Of a stretch of DNA of 64,000 nt, positions 1-56,830 are shown in pieces. The stretch's first letter is position 1; every line of letters begins with the position of its first letter. The position numbers and the translations under genes are program-made. Origin of the DNA: an uncultured Clostridia bacterium (lineage in GTDB: Bacteria > Bacillota > Clostridia > Oscillospirales > Ruminococcaceae); assembly GCA_947624375.1 (NCBI GenBank), contig CANQKD010000001.1, positions 62,001 through 126,000 on the forward strand, given 5' to 3'. The notes beneath the pieces were generated by a model. The model was not told where the DNA came from and did not search any database. It worked only from the letters and a program-made list of their open reading frames with translations.

Positions 1-655
1 TAAGCGCGCCCATTACCGCGCCGCCTATATGTTTGTATTTCGTTGCCGCACAAAGAAGCACCACCGAGCCGAATATCCTGCCTGCGTTGAAACCAGATAC
101 GCTTACTGATGTAAGCAGAGATACCGCCGCCACATAAAGCACCGCAAGTGAGATACCGTGCCTGCCGTTTATATCCAGCAGACCGTTGGCATCTGTTCTG
201 TTCTTTGTAGAAACGGCAAAGTAAGATATTGCCGCGCATATAACAATACCGCTTACGAAATATATCATCTCACGAACAGATATCTCAAAAAATATTGAAA
301 CTATCGCAAGTGCCACTGCCATTCCCACCGCCGTGAATACCGCACTGCCCGTTGGGTCTGTCTTCTTTCTGCTTATTGAATAAAGAGAGCGAAAACCCAT
401 AACGAGCGTCATAGCCGCAGCCTGAAACACCATGTCGTCTAGCGTGCCGAACATTACCATTCCTGCAATTGCCGCAAGATAGCATAAAAGCGCGCACCGC
501 CCCGAAGAAGCTATCACCGCGATGCCAAGCACCGTCGGCATACCCACAAGCTGTGCGCGTGCGCTGATAAATGCCAGCAGTATCTGAAATACAGCCGATA
601 CCGCCGCAAATGCAGTATGTTCTTTTGAAGATCTGCCTTTTGTCCTACTGTTCAT
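1..655 (-). CDS. spoIIE: SpoIIE N-terminal membrane region (partial, runs off left edge)
   Basis: An open frame without a stop runs from the ATG at 655 to the window edge (218 codons), behind an AAAGGGA ribosome site. The translation is almost entirely hydrophobic helices separated by short basic loops (for example around ISRKKTDPTG), with a late segment GFNAGRIFGSVVLLCAATKY. This organisation resembles the multi-span N-terminal region of stage II sporulation protein E, which in Bacillus anchors a PP2C phosphatase at the asymmetric septum and dephosphorylates SpoIIAA to release sigma-F. The phosphatase domain would lie outside the window, so the name rests on the membrane region and on the Spo0A-type promoter architecture upstream. 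Another polytopic membrane protein remains possible. Confidence 0.6.
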   Translation of the reverse strand, partial: MNSRTKGRSSKEHTAFAAVSAVFQILLAFISARAQLVGMPTVLGIAVIASSGRCALLCYLAAIAGMVMFGTLDDMVFQAAAMTLVMGFRSLYSISRKKTDPTGSAVFTAVGMAVALAIVSIFFEISVREMIYFVSGIVICAAISYFAVSTKNRTDANGLLDINGRHGISLAVLYVAAVSLLTSVSVSGFNAGRIFGSVVLLCAATKYKHIGGAVMGAL

Positions 656-39880: not shown

Positions 39881-39909
39881 ATAATAACATATTTTCTTTC
39901 CATTGTCAA
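39881..39909 (-). promoter_or_regulatory. promoter of the T-box/tyrS operon, embedded in the end of sigG
   Basis: Minus-strand TTGACA (39904-39909), 17-bp spacer, TATTAT (39881-39886). The TGA stop codon of sigG is inside the -35 hexamer. Confidence 0.75.
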
Positions 39910-40682
39910 GAGCGCAGCTGTTTTTTTATTGTATCGAGCGCACCTTTTTCAAGCCGCGATACCTGCGCCTGCGAAATTCCTATCTGTTTTGCGACTTCCA
40001 CCTGCGTTTTGCCTTTCAGATATCTCATATAAAGAATATTTTTCTCTCTGTCGCACAGGTTTTTTACTGCCTCTTTCAGTGAAAGCTCATCAAGCCAGCC
40101 CTGATCGTCGGTCTTGTCGCTTATCTGATCGAGAACATACAAGTCATCGCCGCTGTCTGAAAAAACAGGTTCATACAGCGAAAGCGGGTCAGTTATCGAC
40201 TCCAGCGCCATAACTACGTCAGTCAGCGGAGCATTTATATCGCTTGCTATCTCTGAAACGGTCGGTTCGCGCTGCATTGATGCCGTCAGTTTTTCTTTGC
40301 TCTGCATAGCCTTGAAAGCCAGGTCTCTCAGCGAACGCGAAACTCTCACAGGCGAATTATCACGCAAATGCCGCCTAAGCTCCCCTGCTATCATTGGCAC
40401 CGCATACGTTGAAAACTTTACCTGAAGCGAAGTATCAAAGTTATCTATCGCCTTTATAAGCCCTATAACGCCCACCTGAAACAGATCGTCGGGGCACTCG
40501 CCCCTGCCAAGATACTTTTGCAAAACGCTCAGCACCAGCCGCAGATTGCATATTATAAGCTGCTCTCTTGCCGGCTTGTCCCCTTTTCTCGCTCGATTTA
40601 TCAGTTCTATTTTTTCGCTCTCTTTTAACGTCTTTAACCTTGATGTGTTTACACCGCTGATCTCTACCTTATTATACTGCAT
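39906..40682 (-). CDS. sigG: forespore-specific sigma factor sigma-G
   Basis: 258 residues. The N-terminal NKVEISGVNTSRLKTL is the hallmark of SigG (the region that binds the anti-sigma factor), followed by regions 2.1-2.4 (NLRLVLSVLQKY, DDLFQVGVIGLIKAIDNFD, FSTYAVPMIAGELRRHLRD), region 3, and region 4 with YLKGKTQVEVAKQIGISQAQVSRLE. SigG drives late forespore genes after engulfment. ATG 40682 has AAGGAG eight bases upstream. Its upstream region carries a sigma-G/F-like promoter, and the next gene upstream is a Cys-rich probable spore protein. Confidence 0.95.
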   Translation of the reverse strand: MQYNKVEISGVNTSRLKTLKESEKIELINRARKGDKPAREQLIICNLRLVLSVLQKYLGRGECPDDLFQVGVIGLIKAIDNFDTSLQVKFSTYAVPMIAGELRRHLRDNSPVRVSRSLRDLAFKAMQSKEKLTASMQREPTVSEIASDINAPLTDVVMALESITDPLSLYEPVFSDSGDDLYVLDQISDKTDDQGWLDELSLKEAVKNLCDREKNILYMRYLKGKTQVEVAKQIGISQAQVSRLEKGALDTIKKQLRS

Positions 40683-40720
40683 GATCAATGCTCCTTAAAG
40701 TGGTATAATACATCCTTGCT

Positions 40721-40804: not shown

Positions 40805-41623
40805 TTAGTTATTGCAATTCTGACCGTCATTTTGCTCATCTGAAACAGCGCAGCCGCATGAAGTGTCTTCAAGGTCTTTAGGGAAAAATTCCGATACAGG
40901 GAACGCCAGCTTGTCGAACAGCTCGCAGGGGCTGTCAGTGTTGGAAGTACATTCCTTTTCTGGCAGGCAGTATTCAAACGTAGGCACGAGCAGCGAAACT
41001 CGCCTTTGCAGCTGAACGATAGAGAACATTCCCACCGTTACATAAACAAACTTATTGCCTACAGGCACAGGCTGAATGTCGTCGCAGTTGCAGCTGAGGC
41101 AAACGTCTGTTGCTGGGCAGGTCGGCAGAGGACGGCAGGTAGTTTTGATGTCAAGAACAATAGGGTCTACCACGCTTACACAGGCAACAGGCAAAGTTGA
41201 TTTGCAGGTGCAGCAGCAGCCGTCGTTCGATTCGTACTCGCTGACCTGATTTGAACAGAATGTCTTGGTGTGACCGTCGCTGCCGTAGAGTATAACCTTT
41301 TTGGTGAACGCGCTTGTGCCCGATATCTGCGTAGGCACGCCGTTTGCCGTCGGGTAAACATCAACGTACACCGTAAAAGCATATGTAATATCTACCGAGT
41401 AAAATCCGGCATGAAACGGTACAGGCTCGATAGCAAAGCTTACGGTGTCTACCTCAACGCAGCTGCTTTTTACATAACAGCTCGAGTTTACAAGCTGCTG
41501 ATCCGCCGCCGAAAAGGTCACGGGCATATCTTCCAGGCAATCCTTGTCGGAGCATGAATCGAAGATCTTTGAAACATCAATGCAAGCCGCTTCTTTGAAA
41601 GCGCCGTTAGGGTTTTCATTCAT
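40805..41623 (-). CDS. cysteine-rich probable spore-associated protein, unknown function
   Basis: About 272 residues with more than 20 Cys, many in clusters (DGCCCTCKS, CPATDVCLSCNCDD, DTSCGCAV). No signal peptide or membrane helix, so it is cytoplasmic or a mother-cell product. The middle third shows alternating strands (GFYSVDITYAFTVYVDVYP; GNKFVYVTVGMFSIVQLQRR) that look like a beta-sandwich. Cys richness, position before sigG and a sigma-K-like promoter suggest a spore coat or envelope protein, but no family is recognised. ATG 41623 is used; GTG 41632 is the alternative and is closer to AAAGGA. Confidence 0.65.
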   Translation of the reverse strand: MNENPNGAFKEAACIDVSKIFDSCSDKDCLEDMPVTFSAADQQLVNSSCYVKSSCVEVDTVSFAIEPVPFHAGFYSVDITYAFTVYVDVYPTANGVPTQISGTSAFTKKVILYGSDGHTKTFCSNQVSEYESNDGCCCTCKSTLPVACVSVVDPIVLDIKTTCRPLPTCPATDVCLSCNCDDIQPVPVGNKFVYVTVGMFSIVQLQRRVSLLVPTFEYCLPEKECTSNTDSPCELFDKLAFPVSEFFPKDLEDTSCGCAVSDEQNDGQNCNN

Positions 41624-41644
41624 ATTGATCACTTATTCCTTTCG

Positions 41645-50067: not shown

Positions 50068-52347
50068 ATGAATATAGAAAAAATACTTTCCGAGATGACG
50101 CTTGAAGAAAAGGCTTCACTGTGTTCCGGCAGCGATTTCTGGCACACAGAGTCACTTAAACGTTTCGACATTGAGCCTATAATGCTCTCAGACGGCCCTC
50201 ACGGTCTGAGAAAGACCAACCGCAACCATTGCGTAACGGAAGCCAATGACGAGACCGCAATTGCGGTATGCTTCCCTGCTGCCTGCGCAACGGCATCTTC
50301 ATTTGACAAAACGCTTCTTGAAAAAATGGGCAAGGCTATCGGTGATGAGTGTCAGGCTGAGGACATAGCTGTAATACTCGGTCCGGGCGTGAATATAAAG
50401 CGCTCTCCCCTCTGCGGCAGAAACTTTGAATATTTCTCAGAAGACCCCTATCTTGCATCGCACCAGGCTGCGGCGCTTATCAAAGGCATACAGAGCAAGG
50501 GCGTGGGAACTTCTATAAAGCACTTTGCCTGCAACAATCAGGAAACGCGCAGAATGGCTGTAAGCGCCAACGTTGATGAGCGCACGCTGCACGAGATATA
50601 TCTCAGCGTGTTTGAGTATGCTATAAAAGAAGCCAAGCCGTGGACCGTCATGGCATCGTATAATCGCATCAATGGCGAATACACCACGCAGAGCAAATAT
50701 CTGCTGACCGATATACTTCGCGAAAAATGGGGCTTTAAAGGTCTTGTAATGAGCGACTGGGGCGCGGTTGACGAGCGCGAAAAAGGCGTTGAAGCAGGGC
50801 TTGACCTGCAAATGCCCTCCTGCCACGGCAAGACGGACGAAATAATAGTTGAAGCAGTAAATAGTGGAAAGCTTGACGAAAAGTACGTTGATGAATGTGT
50901 AAGGAACGTTCTGAAGCTTTATGACAAATACAAGACCAACCACAAGGGCGGTCAGTGGGATCCGAAAAAAGACCACGAGCTTTCACGGAAGATAGCCACA
51001 GAATGTGCTGTACTTCTGAAAAATGACGGCGACATACTGCCGCTTGACAAGAGCAAAAAGATATGTTTTATCGGCGCGTTTGCTAAAACACCGCGTTTTC
51101 AGGGAGGCGGTTCTTCGCACATAGAATGTACCGAGATAACCTCGGCTCTCGATGCCGTCAAAGAATACTGCGATGTAAAATTTGCTATGGGCTTTGAGGC
51201 AGAGAGCAACGATCCCGATGAAAAGCTTATCTCAGAGGCTGTAGAGCTTGCCAAAAACAGCGATGTTGCTGTAATATTTGCAGGTCTGCCCGATTCATTC
51301 GAGTATGAGGGCGGTGACAGAAAGCATATGCGTATGCCAGACTGCCAGTGCGAGCTTATAAAGCGTGCGGCGGCTGTAAACAAGAATATAGTAGTCGTGC
51401 TGCACAACGGCTCACCTATGGAAATGCCGTGGATAGACAGCGCAAAGGGCGTGCTGGAAATGTATCTTGCAGGTCAGGCGAGCGGCGGCGCGGCTTGTGA
51501 TCTGCTGTTTGGCAAAGTAAACCCGAGCGGCAAGCTTGCCGAGACATTCCCTCTCCGCCACGAAGATACCCCTGCATTTATAGGCGAATTCGGCTGCGGC
51601 GACAACGTTTATTACAACGAGGGCTTGTATGTAGGCTACCGCTGGTATGACAAGCGCAAGCTGCCTGTGCTTTTCCCGTTTGGCTACGGGCTCAGCTACA
51701 CTAAGTTTGAGTATTCCGATATAAAGCTGTCGGCAGATGAGATAAACGCCGACGGTGAACTTACTGTGAGCGTAACCGTCAAAAACGTTGGCAGCCGTGC
51801 AGGCAAAGATGTTGTTCAGCTATATGTGAGCGACAAGCATTCATCGGTCGACAGACCTGTACGCGAACTGAAAGGCTATGAAAAAGTGGCTCTTGAAGCA
51901 GGCGAAAGCAAGAAAGTATTCTTCAAGCTGGACAAGACCGCCTTTGCCTATTACAGCACCGATGAGCACGACTGGGTGGTCGAAGACGGCAGATACGACA
52001 TAGAGATAGGTTCATCTTCAAGAGACATAAGGCAGGCGGCGTATATTTTCATAAACAACGGCTATCTGCCCAAAGTGCACTTTACCATAAACAGCATTGT
52101 CGGCGATATTCTTGCCCACCCTGCCGCTGCAGAAGTTTTTGTAGACTTTTTAAGGTCAGAAGTTGCCAAAGAGGGCGGTCAGGTAGGCATACAAAGCGTT
52201 GACGACTGCCCTGCCGACCTTATGCAGGTATTTTCTGATATGAGTGTGCGCACAACGCTTGATTTTGTAGCTTCTAAGGGCATAACGCGTGAAAAGCTTA
52301 TCGCCACCATAAACAGGCTGAACGACATTGTAAACGACGAAAAGTAA
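50068..52347 (+). CDS. GH3 family beta-glucosidase (cytoplasmic)
   Basis: 759 residues, no signal peptide. GH3 N-terminal barrel with LSDGPHGLRKTN near 40, SIKHFACNNQETRR near 155 and the nucleophile Asp in VMSDWGAVDEREKGVEAG near 230; GH3 C-terminal domain with AVIFAGLPDSFEYEGGDR supplying the acid/base region; a fibronectin-like domain (DVVQLYVSDKHSSVDRPVREL). After it, about 95 residues (from HFTINSIVGDILAHP) form an extra helical tail. It hydrolyses beta-glucosides such as cellobiose or cello-oligomers taken up by the cell. Transcribed alone. Confidence 0.93.
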   Translation: MNIEKILSEMTLEEKASLCSGSDFWHTESLKRFDIEPIMLSDGPHGLRKTNRNHCVTEANDETAIAVCFPAACATASSFDKTLLEKMGKAIGDECQAEDIAVILGPGVNIKRSPLCGRNFEYFSEDPYLASHQAAALIKGIQSKGVGTSIKHFACNNQETRRMAVSANVDERTLHEIYLSVFEYAIKEAKPWTVMASYNRINGEYTTQSKYLLTDILREKWGFKGLVMSDWGAVDEREKGVEAGLDLQMPSCHGKTDEIIVEAVNSGKLDEKYVDECVRNVLKLYDKYKTNHKGGQWDPKKDHELSRKIATECAVLLKNDGDILPLDKSKKICFIGAFAKTPRFQGGGSSHIECTEITSALDAVKEYCDVKFAMGFEAESNDPDEKLISEAVELAKNSDVAVIFAGLPDSFEYEGGDRKHMRMPDCQCELIKRAAAVNKNIVVVLHNGSPMEMPWIDSAKGVLEMYLAGQASGGAACDLLFGKVNPSGKLAETFPLRHEDTPAFIGEFGCGDNVYYNEGLYVGYRWYDKRKLPVLFPFGYGLSYTKFEYSDIKLSADEINADGELTVSVTVKNVGSRAGKDVVQLYVSDKHSSVDRPVRELKGYEKVALEAGESKKVFFKLDKTAFAYYSTDEHDWVVEDGRYDIEIGSSSRDIRQAAYIFINNGYLPKVHFTINSIVGDILAHPAAAEVFVDFLRSEVAKEGGQVGIQSVDDCPADLMQVFSDMSVRTTLDFVASKGITREKLIATINRLNDIVNDEK

Positions 52348-52402
52348 CGCATCTGCCGCCTGCGGAATATTATGTAGTAAATTTCGTTATGGGGGTAGTT
52401 GA

Positions 52403-52486
52403 ATGAAAATAATCGTCATCAAGCCGCCTAAAGCAGTGGCAGGAGCGCTGAGACTGATATTCGGCATCAAAAAGTGTCGGAACTGA
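52403..52486 (+). CDS. spoVM: stage V sporulation protein SpoVM, 27 residues
   Basis: ATG 52403 with GGGGGT seven bases upstream encodes a 27-residue amphipathic peptide with the SpoVM pattern: MK, IKxPK (IKPPK at residues 6-10), a small-residue turn (AGA), an Arg two residues later, then FGIKK and a polar end. SpoVM of Bacillus is 26 residues, marks the curved forespore membrane by sensing positive curvature and anchors the coat ATPase SpoIVA. Its place next to rsgA-prkC-prpC is the conserved neighbourhood of spoVM in Bacillus. It converges on rsgA through a shared terminator. Confidence 0.85.
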   Translation: MKIIVIKPPKAVAGALRLIFGIKKCRN

Positions 52487-52491
52487 AAAAG

Positions 52492-52530
52492 AAACATCCG
52501 TCGGAGAAATATCTTCGGCGGATGTTTTTA
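52492..52530. terminator. terminator between convergent spoVM and rsgA
   Basis: AAACATCCG / CGGATGTTT with additional inner pairs around an A/T loop; a T-tract follows on the plus strand (TTTTTATTGC) and an A/T region on the other side, so it may serve both genes. Confidence 0.82.
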
Positions 52531-53442
52531 TTGCTTTTTATACTGTTTGTACTTCCACTCGGGAATAATCTTTGCTTCTTCATACATAGCTTTGTAGCTT
52601 TCGTGGCGTGAGGAGCATATTTTGCCCTCTGCCATAGCTTCAAGTACCGCACAGCCGCTTTCTTTGGTATGGCTGCAATTTATAAATCTGCATTTTCCCA
52701 GGAACGGTCTGAACTCGCGAAAGCATTCTGCTAAGTCTTCTTTGAAAATTATATCATACTGTGATGTATCAAAGCTTGAAAAGCCGGGTGTATCTGCAAC
52801 ATATCCCCCACCTGAAAGCTTATACAGCGAAACGTGCCGAGTTGTGTGCCTGCCTCTGCCAAGTTTGCGGCTAATTTCGGCTGTTTTTTCTTTAAGGTCG
52901 GGAAACATACCGTTGAGCAGCGTTGTTTTGCCCACCCCCGTATTGCCAGCAAACGCCGACACCTGACCGCTTATGCGCTGTTTCAGCACATCTGCAAGTG
53001 TTTCATCACCGCCGCTTATACAGAAGACCTCAACACCGCAGCCGTTGTAAAGCTCTTTAAGCTCTTCGGCAGGCGTTATATCGGTTTTCGTAAATACTAT
53101 GACAGGGTCTATATTTTTATACTCTGCAACAGCTATGAATTTATCAAGCAAAAGCAAATTCGGCGAAGGCTGACAGGACGACACAACAAGTATCAGGTTA
53201 TCGATATTAGCAAGCGGCGGACGTACAATAAAATTCCTGCGACTGCACACTTCAACGATAACGCCCCTGCCCTCGCCCGTCTGCTCTATTGAAACAACAT
53301 CACCGCAGCAGGGCGAAATGCCCTTATTTCTGAATGAGCCCCTCGCGGTACATTCATATACACTATCGGAGACATCTACAAAATAAATGCCTCCGATAAG
53401 TTTTACTATCGTACCCGAGAGTTTTATATTCTCACGGTCCAT
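52528..53442 (-). CDS. rsgA: ribosome small-subunit-dependent GTPase A
   Basis: 304 residues. Circularly permuted GTPase for late 30S maturation: N-terminal OB-fold (IVKLIGGIYFVDVSD), then G4 FTKTDITP before G1 AGNTGVGKTTLLNGMF near 172 and G3 VADTPGFSS near 215, and a C-terminal zinc site CRFINCSHTKESGC. Start ATG lies 8 bp after prkC. In Bacillus this protein (CpgA) is a PrkC phosphorylation substrate, which fits the neighbourhood. Confidence 0.96.
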   Translation of the reverse strand: MDRENIKLSGTIVKLIGGIYFVDVSDSVYECTARGSFRNKGISPCCGDVVSIEQTGEGRGVIVEVCSRRNFIVRPPLANIDNLILVVSSCQPSPNLLLLDKFIAVAEYKNIDPVIVFTKTDITPAEELKELYNGCGVEVFCISGGDETLADVLKQRISGQVSAFAGNTGVGKTTLLNGMFPDLKEKTAEISRKLGRGRHTTRHVSLYKLSGGGYVADTPGFSSFDTSQYDIIFKEDLAECFREFRPFLGKCRFINCSHTKESGCAVLEAMAEGKICSSRHESYKAMYEEAKIIPEWKYKQYKKQ

Positions 53443-53449
53443 ATAAGTT

Positions 53450-56053
53450 TTAATCTACCTTTTCAAACTTGCTTCTGTCAGCAAAGATATTTCTCGCAAA
53501 CTCAACTTCACGGTAACCGTATGTATTATCATCACCTACCGAGAAGGTAAACTCATCACCTGCATGAAATTCTTTCAGCCGCTTGGAGGGATCGGAAAGG
53601 TCATAGAAGAAACCGTCTTCTATAGCTACATAAGTGCCGGGCTCAGAAAGATCATAATAAGGTGGTTCTGCAGTTGTTACAGGAGTCGTCTCGGATTTGG
53701 TCGGTTCTGTCGTTGTCACATCAGTCGGCTCCGTTGCAGGCGGTTCGGTGACAGGCGGCTCAGTAACAGGAGGAGTTGTAACTTCTGCAACGCCCTCAAC
53801 AGTTATATTAAGGTTGCCTGTAACTTCCTTTACGGTATAAGTGCCGTCTGCGTTCTTAGAAACAGCCGAGCCGTTTACTCTTACCACCATAGCGCTTGAA
53901 TTAAACCCGCTGTCTACACTTACAGAGAATGTGTAATCGCTGCCCTCGGTAACTGTTTCTGCACCTGCGAACTTTACACCTGCAGTCTGTGTGAAGTTTA
54001 CCGTATAGCTTGCCTTTGTGGTAGTTTCGACTATCTTGATAAATGCATCTTTATCAACAGAAGTCTGTGTAGCGGTCTTAGCCGAGAAATCGGCAGTGAA
54101 CACAGCATACTTTACAGCCTTGCTGGTCTTGTCGTTTACAGCCTCTACCATGAGAGTCTGCACGCCGGTTCCTGTAACGTTCTTTATCGTAATATTAGTG
54201 CCTGCATAATATTCAGCTTTTTCAACAGTTGAATGCTGAATTATCGAGCCGGAATCATTATACACGTTGAATGTGAACGAACCGCTTGCCCCGGCAGGTA
54301 TAGGCACTGAAAGATCTACAGAGCCTGCGCCCTCAACACCCGTTGAAACGCCTATTATTATTTCCTTGTCACGAGGTATCGAAGTGCCCTCTGTAACGCT
54401 CTGGCTTACTACCGTTCCCTTTGCAGGATCTTTTACATCAACATCTTTGAACTTGATATTTGTAAATCTCTTTGCTGCAAGAGCTTCCTGAGCCTCTTCT
54501 TTTGTAAGACCTATTACCTTGGGCATCTCGGAGCTGTTTGAAAGAGGTCCGTAGCTTACATATACAACTATTGTTGAGCCTGCTTCCGCACTTGTGCCGC
54601 TTTCGGGGTCTACTTTGAATATAACGTCCACATCGTATTCATCGCTCCAGTCGGACATTTTCTTTACTTCAAAGCCCAGCTGCTTCAATTCATTTTCGAT
54701 AGAATCGCTGTACTTGTGACCTACAAGATCTTCGGGCACCTGTATCATTCTTGGTCCTTTGCTGACCTTTACACTGACGTTTATGCCCTTATTTGACGTC
54801 TTGCCCTCTGCAACGCTCTGGTCGAATATCAGACCTTCGCCGTATTCGGAATTGTACTCCTCAACGACGTTGAAATTGATCATATCTTTATACTGCTCAG
54901 CAGCCTGCGTATAAACAGTATTTATAAGGTTAGGCATTTCAAAAGAACCGTCATCGGAAGACTTGTTGAACTTGCTTATTACGCCGAAAATTACAACACA
55001 CGCGATGATAACTACTGCAACAGCCGAAGCGCAAAGTATCGGGAAGACATAGCTTTTTCTGGGTTCTTCCTCTTCCTCGTCGTCATACTCGTCGTCGTAC
55101 TCGTCATCATCTTCTTCCTCGTATTTCCTGGAGGCAGCAGGCGTTACCGGTGTGAAGTACTTTGTGCCGCCTTCGCTGTCTTCTTCCTCCTCATCTTCAC
55201 GGGGGATATATCCGAAAACTACCGACTGATCCATCTTGAAAGTATCGATATCCTTTATCATCTCGGCGGCTGACTGATAACGCTTTGCAGGCTCTTTTTC
55301 AACAGCGTGCATAACTATCTCTTCAAGAGCCTCCGGTATAGAAGGCACATATGTACGCGGGTATGTAGGCTGATCCTGCATATGCATAAGAGCCACAGAC
55401 ACGGGATTTTCACCATCGAACATTTTTCTTCCCGTGAGCATTTCATACAGCATAACACCTACGGAGTATATATCGCTTCTTTCATCGGTATAATCTCCGC
55501 TTGCCTGCTCGGGCGAGATATAGTGCACCGAGCCTATGGTCTTTTCTGACATTGTCTTGCCGTCAACTCTTGAAAACCTGGCAATACCAAAGTCCATGAC
55601 CTTTATAGTGCCGTCAGCAAACAGCATAATGTTCTGCGGCTTTATGTCACGGTGTATAATTCCCCTGTCGTGCGCATGCTGCAATGCTCTGAGTATCTGC
55701 GTTATAAAGTGCAGTGCATCTTTCCAGCGCAGTGCGCCCTGCTGCTCGATAAATTCCTTCAGCGTTATACCATCGATATACTCCATAACGATAAACTGAA
55801 TGTCATCGTTAAAACCAACGTCGTATATCTTTACGATATTGGGGTGCGAGAGTACCGCAATAGCCTTGCTCTCGTTCCTGAAACGCTTCAGAAACTCCTC
55901 GTTCTCGGAAAACTCGGGCTTGAGTATCTTCACAGCGACAACTCTGTTTTCCATAATGTCAACTGCCTTGTATACGTCCGCCATTCCGCCGATGCCGATA
56001 AGCTCCGTTATTTCGTATCTTCCGTCAAGCTTTTTGCCGATATTAAGATCCAT
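53450..56053 (-). CDS. prkC: PASTA-domain Ser/Thr protein kinase with long extracytoplasmic tail
   Basis: 867 residues from ATG 56053 (AGGAG eight bases upstream). Kinase domain 10-275: glycine loop GIGGMADVY, VAVK, HRDIKPQN near 135, DFGIAR, SPEQ. A strongly acidic juxtamembrane stretch (Asp/Glu/Tyr, about 305-330) precedes one membrane helix near 340-360. Outside are three PASTA repeats (about 370-570), which bind muropeptides or lipid II, then about 290 additional residues: a beta domain, an Ig-like segment, a Thr/Pro linker with VTEPPVTEPPATEP and a final 60-residue domain. PrkC normally ends soon after its PASTA repeats, so the tail is unusual. Confidence 0.95.
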   Translation of the reverse strand: MDLNIGKKLDGRYEITELIGIGGMADVYKAVDIMENRVVAVKILKPEFSENEEFLKRFRNESKAIAVLSHPNIVKIYDVGFNDDIQFIVMEYIDGITLKEFIEQQGALRWKDALHFITQILRALQHAHDRGIIHRDIKPQNIMLFADGTIKVMDFGIARFSRVDGKTMSEKTIGSVHYISPEQASGDYTDERSDIYSVGVMLYEMLTGRKMFDGENPVSVALMHMQDQPTYPRTYVPSIPEALEEIVMHAVEKEPAKRYQSAAEMIKDIDTFKMDQSVVFGYIPREDEEEEDSEGGTKYFTPVTPAASRKYEEEDDDEYDDEYDDEEEEEPRKSYVFPILCASAVAVVIIACVVIFGVISKFNKSSDDGSFEMPNLINTVYTQAAEQYKDMINFNVVEEYNSEYGEGLIFDQSVAEGKTSNKGINVSVKVSKGPRMIQVPEDLVGHKYSDSIENELKQLGFEVKKMSDWSDEYDVDVIFKVDPESGTSAEAGSTIVVYVSYGPLSNSSEMPKVIGLTKEEAQEALAAKRFTNIKFKDVDVKDPAKGTVVSQSVTEGTSIPRDKEIIIGVSTGVEGAGSVDLSVPIPAGASGSFTFNVYNDSGSIIQHSTVEKAEYYAGTNITIKNVTGTGVQTLMVEAVNDKTSKAVKYAVFTADFSAKTATQTSVDKDAFIKIVETTTKASYTVNFTQTAGVKFAGAETVTEGSDYTFSVSVDSGFNSSAMVVRVNGSAVSKNADGTYTVKEVTGNLNITVEGVAEVTTPPVTEPPVTEPPATEPTDVTTTEPTKSETTPVTTAEPPYYDLSEPGTYVAIEDGFFYDLSDPSKRLKEFHAGDEFTFSVGDDNTYGYREVEFARNIFADRSKFEKVD

Positions 56054-56080
56054 TGATTTCACTCCTATATATTAGTTATA

Positions 56081-56830
56081 TCAATCGTAATTACAGATCA
56101 TGGCGAGGGTTATATTATCCTTGCCACCCTGAGAATTAACATAGTCAATAAGCCCGGCGACAACTTTATCGCCTTTCTCTTTGTTCTCTGACCGCGCGTG
56201 TATAGCTTCATACAGCATATCGTCACTGCAATAGTTTGAAAGACCGTCGCTGCATAAAATTATCTCGTCCCCGCGCGAAATATCTATCTCGAAGAAATCT
56301 ACCTCAACTTCTTTTTCAACGCCGACAGCTTTTGTTATATAGTGCCGCATATCGTGTGTGGAGATCTCTTCTTTATTTATTTTGCCCTGCTCGTAAAGCA
56401 TCTCAACGTAGGTATGGTCAACTGTTACCTGCTCAATGCCGCCAGAAGAAAGATGATAAGCTCTTGAATCGCCAACACTTGCGATATATGCAATATCGTC
56501 TTTCACTATAGCCGCTACACAGGTAGTGCCCATGCCCTTTTTCTCCTGCTCCTCGGCAGCCTTTTTGTATATCAGCGTATTCGCCGCCGATACCGCCGTA
56601 ACCAACAGATTCTTCATGCTCATCGGGCTGAAAGTGCTGCGGTAATTCTGCTTTATCCTGTCATGAACAGCATTTACCGCAATACTGCTTGCAAGGCTGC
56701 CAAAGCCTGCACCGCCCATGCCGTCGCAAACCACAGCGCACACAGCGCCGTCATCGAACGAGCTGAACAAAAAGCTGTCCTGGTTCTCTTTGCGTTTCAT
56801 ACCAATATCACTTGCCGCACAAACAAACAA
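56081..56830 (-). CDS. prpC: PP2C-type Ser/Thr phosphatase
   Basis: 249 residues. Metal-dependent phosphatase that reverses PrkC. Motifs: SDIGMKRKENQDS near 8-20, VVCDGMGGAGFGSLAS near 35, SVGDSRAYHL near 118, and the C-terminal GGKDNITL. The start is TTG 56830, with AAGGGGTGA eight bases upstream; an internal ATG would cut off the first metal-binding strand. It lies 27 bp before prkC in the usual phosphatase-kinase order. Confidence 0.95.
   Translation of the reverse strand: MFVCAASDIGMKRKENQDSFLFSSFDDGAVCAVVCDGMGGAGFGSLASSIAVNAVHDRIKQNYRSTFSPMSMKNLLVTAVSAANTLIYKKAAEEQEKKGMGTTCVAAIVKDDIAYIASVGDSRAYHLSSGGIEQVTVDHTYVEMLYEQGKINKEEISTHDMRHYITKAVGVEKEVEVDFFEIDISRGDEIILCSDGLSNYCSDDMLYEAIHARSENKEKGDKVVAGLIDYVNSQGGKDNITLAMICNYD

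Follow-up and report, generated by a model that had tools for sequence, protein, structure and literature searches.

A 27-codon open reading frame at positions 52403 to 52486 of the window, which is the whole 64,000-nucleotide stretch of DNA analysed here and comes from a probable gut bacterium, very probably encodes a working spoVM gene, and its product is an ordinary SpoVM of the known family. SpoVM is a very small peptide that binds membranes and serves as the base of endospore coats. The earlier note had recognised this frame as a SpoVM micro-gene in an rsgA-prkC neighbourhood. Both parts of that description are borne out, with rsgA and prkC lying on the opposite strand and converging with spoVM. 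The gene and its surroundings are arranged as follows.

50068 to 52347, forward strand: GH3-type glycosidase gene, the upstream neighbour of spoVM but no part of its function (best NCBIfam model NF041610, 834.8 bits, under its cut-off of 1300)
52344 to 52373, forward strand: promoter-like block GTAAC-N16-GAATATTAT, upstream of spoVM
52391 to 52395, forward strand: ribosome-binding site GGGGG, 7 nt before the spoVM ATG
52403 to 52486, forward strand: spoVM, with ATG start, 27 codons, and TGA stop; product MKIIVIKPPKAVAGALRLIFGIKKCRN
52490 to 52529, no strand assigned: hairpin terminator between spoVM and the convergent rsgA (-26.1 kcal/mol, z -7.25)
52528 to 53442, reverse strand: rsgA (TIGR00157, 206.4 bits over a cut-off of 100)
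53450 to 56062, reverse strand: prkC, encoding a PASTA Ser/Thr kinase (NF033483, 563.3 bits over 450)
56081 to 56830, reverse strand: prpC/stp, encoding a PP2C phosphatase (NF033484, 247.8 bits over 230)

The NCBIfam model NF033436 (SpoVM_broad) matches residues 1-24 of the peptide with 32.4 bits (E 6.6e-8), and the same stretch reached 30.0 bits (E 1.9e-6) in the whole-genome profile search. With a cut-off of 31 bits, the family match is marginal, being barely over the cut-off as a protein and just below it in the genome search. The Pfam search of the peptide matched no family, and the PDB sequence search with it found nothing. Its length of 27 aa falls among the 22-30 aa of its relatives, and its N-terminal end meets a pattern near MK(I/V)VV.K.PK. 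The comparison with other SpoVM peptides, which the earlier note had proposed as a check, was made in two alignments. The first (A1) aligns the window peptide with 27 others and contains 28 of 30 peptides, as the near-duplicates from genomes G001 and G004 were omitted; these are present in the second (A2), which aligns it with 37 others in 38 rows and omits G039, G018, and G035. The amphipathic moment of residues 10-24 is 0.496, which is unremarkable and not significant for this composition, as 1,017 of 10,000 shuffles reach it. The remark that a gene of this size would be missed holds historically, since 70 spoVM genes left out of genome annotation are given in Table 2 of Galperin 2012 (PMC3533761), but not at present, as the NCBIfam model now finds it. 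The finding confirms a gene of a kind long missed by annotation.

We then inspected the sporulation genes of the same genome. Two of them, sigG and a probable spoIIE, had been named by the earlier note in support of a genuine or recently lost sporulation programme, and both lie at least partly in the window.

1 to 583, reverse strand: 5' part of spoIIE, running on past the window edge (open frame in the window at 2 to 715)
39906 to 40688, reverse strand: sigG (NF006071, 379 bits over 372; TIGR02850, 368.9 bits, under 457)

The spoIIE gene is real and occupies G000:C1:60394-62583 on the reverse strand, so that its 5' part corresponds to window positions 1-583. Its match to TIGR02865 (248 bits, E 5.3e-74) is under the cut-off of 490.8 bits; among 41 genomes, comprising this one and 40 relatives, SpoIIE was matched in 38 and exceeded that cut-off in none. 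Just upstream of sigG, a 275-aa cysteine-rich protein is encoded at 40805-41632 on the reverse strand, for which the NCBIfam and Pfam searches gave no family match.

A search of the genome for spoIVA, likewise put forward earlier as a test, found SpoIVA at G000:C7:87987-88691 (profile search, E 1.5e-117). The protein has 491 aa, and its matches to all three SpoIVA Pfam domains span the full or almost the full domain length, each over the cut-off (PF09547, 389.2 bits; PF20438, 230.6 bits; PF20439, 115.9 bits). Directly upstream of spoIVA is a SipL homologue, which scores 86.5 bits with PF12673, over the cut-off, and has a LysM match slightly below cut-off. The glycine seventh from the C terminus of SpoIVA, which would be G486 in the 492-residue protein of B. 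subtilis, is kept in all 21 SpoIVA sequences read, this one included. The genome also has Spo0A, SpoVAD, SASP, and SpoIIID (108.1 bits, under the cut-off of 111.5), together with SigE (NF006158, 352.9 bits over 339; TIGR02835, 337.2 bits, under 348.6) and a SigK-type factor (subfamily model, 278.8 bits over 252; TIGR02846, 264.9 bits, under 298.65). Across the 41 genomes, SpoIVA was matched in 39, Spo0A was over its cut-off in 38, and SpoVAD, SASP, and SpoIIID were matched in 38, 34, and 34, respectively. Spo0A is matched over its full length at two places in the genome, with scores that are nearly the same (G000:C2:237552-238301 and G000:C8:918-1667); G008 likewise has two, each close to a contig end.

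These genes bear on whether the peptide is a relic in a genome that recently lost sporulation. Such a reading would suit the report that C. difficile can largely do without SpoVM (PMC5607322), and other members of the order, such as G068, G081, and G093, have neither a SpoIVA nor a SpoVM match. Against it, the matches listed for ten sporulation genes of the genome (Spo0A, SpoIIE, SigE, SigK, SigG, SpoIIID, SpoIVA, SipL, SpoVAD, and SASP) are all open frames with no internal stop, and we regard a relic as quite improbable. Because these genes are present, the word genuine in the earlier description fits, whereas recently lost is unsupported, every marker tested being an open frame. The presence of SpoVM, SpoIVA, SipL, and the sigma factors makes the lineage a probable spore-former.

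Short frames are abundant, with 854 of at least 20 aa in the window, and one could arise by chance between the glycosidase gene and the rsgA terminator. To test for chance, 123 distinct SpoVM peptides, all from outside the family to which this genome belongs, were combined into a profile. The spoVM frame scored 39.6 bits, compared with 4.8 for the runner-up among the 854 window frames and 14.9 for the best of 46,945 frames in 40 dinucleotide-preserving shuffles of the window, in a control that is not fully independent since the peptides were found via alignment A2, which includes the window peptide. The frame is also kept in all ten genomes of the genus, this one included, and its variable sites fall mainly on the third codon position (9, 7, and 22 at positions 1, 2, and 3, respectively, over 25 codons in 10 genomes). 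With a ribosome-binding site and a terminator in addition, a chance frame has a negligible probability. Neither outcome that the earlier note had named as a refutation, a genome lacking spoIVA or a frame that relatives do not conserve, was obtained.

Compared with four close relatives, the window spoVM differs from each by one to five synonymous and two nonsynonymous codon changes, the nearest having one synonymous and two nonsynonymous. Four of the ten genus members exceed the NF033436 cut-off in the genome search. Among the 41 genomes, this model gave a match at E 1e-3 or better in 34, of which 22 are over and 12 under the cut-off. A tuned profile built from 28 SpoVM peptides was run on 11 genomes with a weak or missing match. 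It added five short SpoVM-like frames (G025, G036, G037, G039, and G040) and lifted detection from 34 to 40 of the 41 genomes, the last one counted (G018) being a partial match that was not trusted. A match in G035 (E 0.89) lies in a long frame and was rejected as not SpoVM. Whether distant versions of SpoVM hide in clostridia in which none has been detected is a question posed by Galperin 2012 (PMC3533761).

The elements flanking spoVM recur in its relatives. A G-rich block likewise precedes the spoVM start in the congeners. The promoter-like block, which in the window shares its 5' end with the stop codon of the glycosidase gene, is found as GTAAC-N15/16-GAATATWAT upstream of spoVM in nine of the ten genus genomes, and its GAATATWAT half in all ten. 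It precedes spoVM also in the two genomes (G003 and G005) where spoVM lies on the opposite strand, and hence probably belongs to spoVM. The pattern, chosen after reading the site, occurs once in the window versus 0.01 expected. Genome-wide it is not enriched, with two matches in this genome and two for the reversed control. The second match (L248) is inside an open reading frame without any sporulation sign, which we take to be helix-turn-helix-like. The block presumably resembles mother-cell sigma-factor promoters; as the genome count equals that of the control, a sigma-E or sigma-K reading was kept as a resemblance only. At the 3' side, the hairpin was equalled in stability by none of 200 shuffles.

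We then compared the gene neighbourhoods. In loci taken with flanks of at most 1.5 kb, rsgA adjoins spoVM in 20 of 30, the window included; it lies upstream on the same strand in 11 of them and is convergent in nine, the window among these. The order glycosidase-spoVM-rsgA occurs in all ten genus genomes, with spoVM directed toward rsgA in eight and away from it in G003 and G005. In several relatives spoVM sits between rsgA and sipL-spoIVA, and in G037 and G017 (loci L076 and L083) prpC, prkC, rsgA, spoVM, sipL, and spoIVA are contiguous on one strand, whereas the window spoVM is beside rsgA only. It is on contig C1 and spoIVA on C7, both well inside the contig. Since relatives have the rsgA-spoVM-sipL-spoIVA arrangement, the rsgA-prkC surroundings in the window are probably a remnant of a coat-morphogenesis cluster. 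Taking that arrangement as ancestral, the older cluster would have been split in the genus of the window. SpoVM would then have remained by rsgA with its own promoter-like block, on the other strand in eight of the ten genomes, and sipL-spoIVA would have come to lie on another contig. That the peptide is a SpoVM relative with another role tied to rsgA-prkC, as its place beside rsgA while sipL-spoIVA sit elsewhere might suggest, is highly implausible, given that the same neighbourhood includes sipL-spoIVA in relatives and that both orientations of spoVM with respect to rsgA occur in the genus. In comparison with four close congeners, PrkC is much less conserved in its C-terminal part (56-58% identity) than the adjacent RsgA (92-94%). 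For the glycosidase, the best model NF041610, the cut-off of which was not reached, is that of an exo-alpha-(1->6)-L-arabinopyranosidase.

A working SpoVM remains the preferred reading, and by analogy it most likely acts as in Bacillus, where it would hold SpoIVA on the forespore membrane. Following work on Bacillus subtilis and C. difficile, the peptide would be made in the mother cell, and its putative amphipathic stretch of about residues 10-24 would lie in the outer forespore membrane. Toward the N terminus, the helix would be broken by Pro8-Pro9, which would help select the convex forespore surface, Ile6 would contact the C terminus of SpoIVA, and the SpoIVA ATPase and then SipL would assemble on SpoVM as the base of the coat. 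We take residues K2, I6, K7, P9, K10, G14, R17, and G21 of the window peptide to agree with B. subtilis SpoVM, Ile6, Pro9, and Arg17 thus presumably being shared; the B. subtilis peptide presumably has Leu8-Pro9 where the window peptide has Pro8-Pro9. The two are alike in length (26 aa in B. subtilis), in the N-terminal basic-hydrophobic segment, and in having SpoIVA as partner. Unlike B. subtilis spoVM, the window gene has a convergent rsgA and a glycosidase gene as neighbours, and its genome has SipL. PMC5607322 names Ile6 and Pro9 as functional SpoVM residues, and SpoVID, SafA, and CotE as Bacillales proteins. The C. difficile SpoVM is of the same family, again with SpoIVA and SipL in one genome. 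According to the same paper (PMC5607322), spoVM of C. difficile lies close to rpmB and shares a transcript with CD25622, in contrast to the window spoVM with its place beside rsgA and its own promoter-like block.

We extended the survey to 197 genomes of the order with a 38-row SpoVM profile at E 0.01 or better, a threshold at which about two chance matches are expected over the 197 if the E-values are calibrated. SpoVM was matched in 151 genomes and SpoIVA in 185. The two co-occur, though not strictly: 146 of the 185 SpoIVA-positive genomes have a SpoVM match, compared with five of the 12 SpoIVA-negative ones, leaving 39 and seven, respectively, without (Fisher p 0.008, which is not a clean probability as the genomes are related). 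The SpoVM peptides were read in 149 of the 151 genomes, G147 and G160 being without a listed place. SpoVM lies within 5 kb of spoIVA in at least 39 of these 149 genomes; the pairs were picked by eye from the match lists, and the count is a lower bound because not all spoIVA places were listed.

The 149 peptides of the order fall into four natural forms with respect to prolines 8 and 9. Pro9 is present in 137, of which 119 lack Pro8 and 18 have it. The other 12 comprise four with Pro8 only (candidates from G039, G108, G119, and G212) and eight with neither proline, namely those of G055 and of seven genomes of one family (G047, G077, G102, G112, G134, G161, and G181; loci L227-L233). The window peptide is of the Pro8-Pro9 form, as in eight of the ten genus genomes, and G005 and G007 have Ser8-Pro9. 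According to Ribis 2017 (PMC5607322), Pro9 alone among the residues of SpoVM is completely conserved, and it is essential for recognition of positively curved membranes. A review (PMC12004969) states that SpoVM P9A loses localisation and that a 2017 study reintroduced prolines at positions 7-13. Literature searches, in a coverage that largely leaves out subscription papers, listed no title or abstract describing a natural SpoVM that lacks Pro9. We judge the odds to be about even that the forms without Pro9 still function as SpoVM and reach the forespore although they lack the proline break, a feature considered essential for recognising curvature; the Pro8-Pro9 form may then be an intermediate through which the proline changed position. 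These variants are the part worth a specialist's second look, the window peptide merely hinting at their spread, and, being natural peptides, they could go straight into the curvature-sensing assays that have been applied to SpoVM of B. subtilis.

All but one of the 12 forms without Pro9 are weak matches (E 5e-6 to 7e-4), the two stronger ones being G181 (1e-8) and G212 (2e-7). Six of the 12 are within 5 kb of spoIVA, all belonging to the seven-member family (all but G134), and in four of them spoVM is also flanked by rsgA on its opposite side. For the Pro8-only forms, G055, and G134, no spoIVA was found nearby within the fetched stretches; rsgA is near spoVM in G134 and G212. Within the family, the spoVM genes of the closest pair compared, G047 and G102, show seven synonymous codon differences and not one nonsynonymous, and those of G112 and G077 show 11 synonymous and five nonsynonymous. 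A SpoIVA tree was made from 21 of 24 loci (G211, G063, and G017 were dropped, as they were not recovered by motif). In this tree all seven members fall together in a supported clade, whose 11 rows also include a single Pro9 form and three genomes in which SpoVM was not matched. The synonymous changes and the SpoIVA clade are compatible both with a SpoVM that has changed yet still works and with a SpoVM that is being lost. G055 belongs to one genus with G068, G081, G093, and G116; of these five, G055 alone has a SpoIVA match, along with its SpoVM candidate without Pro9, and three of the other four are listed without SpoVM. A recent loss of sporulation is possible in this genus.
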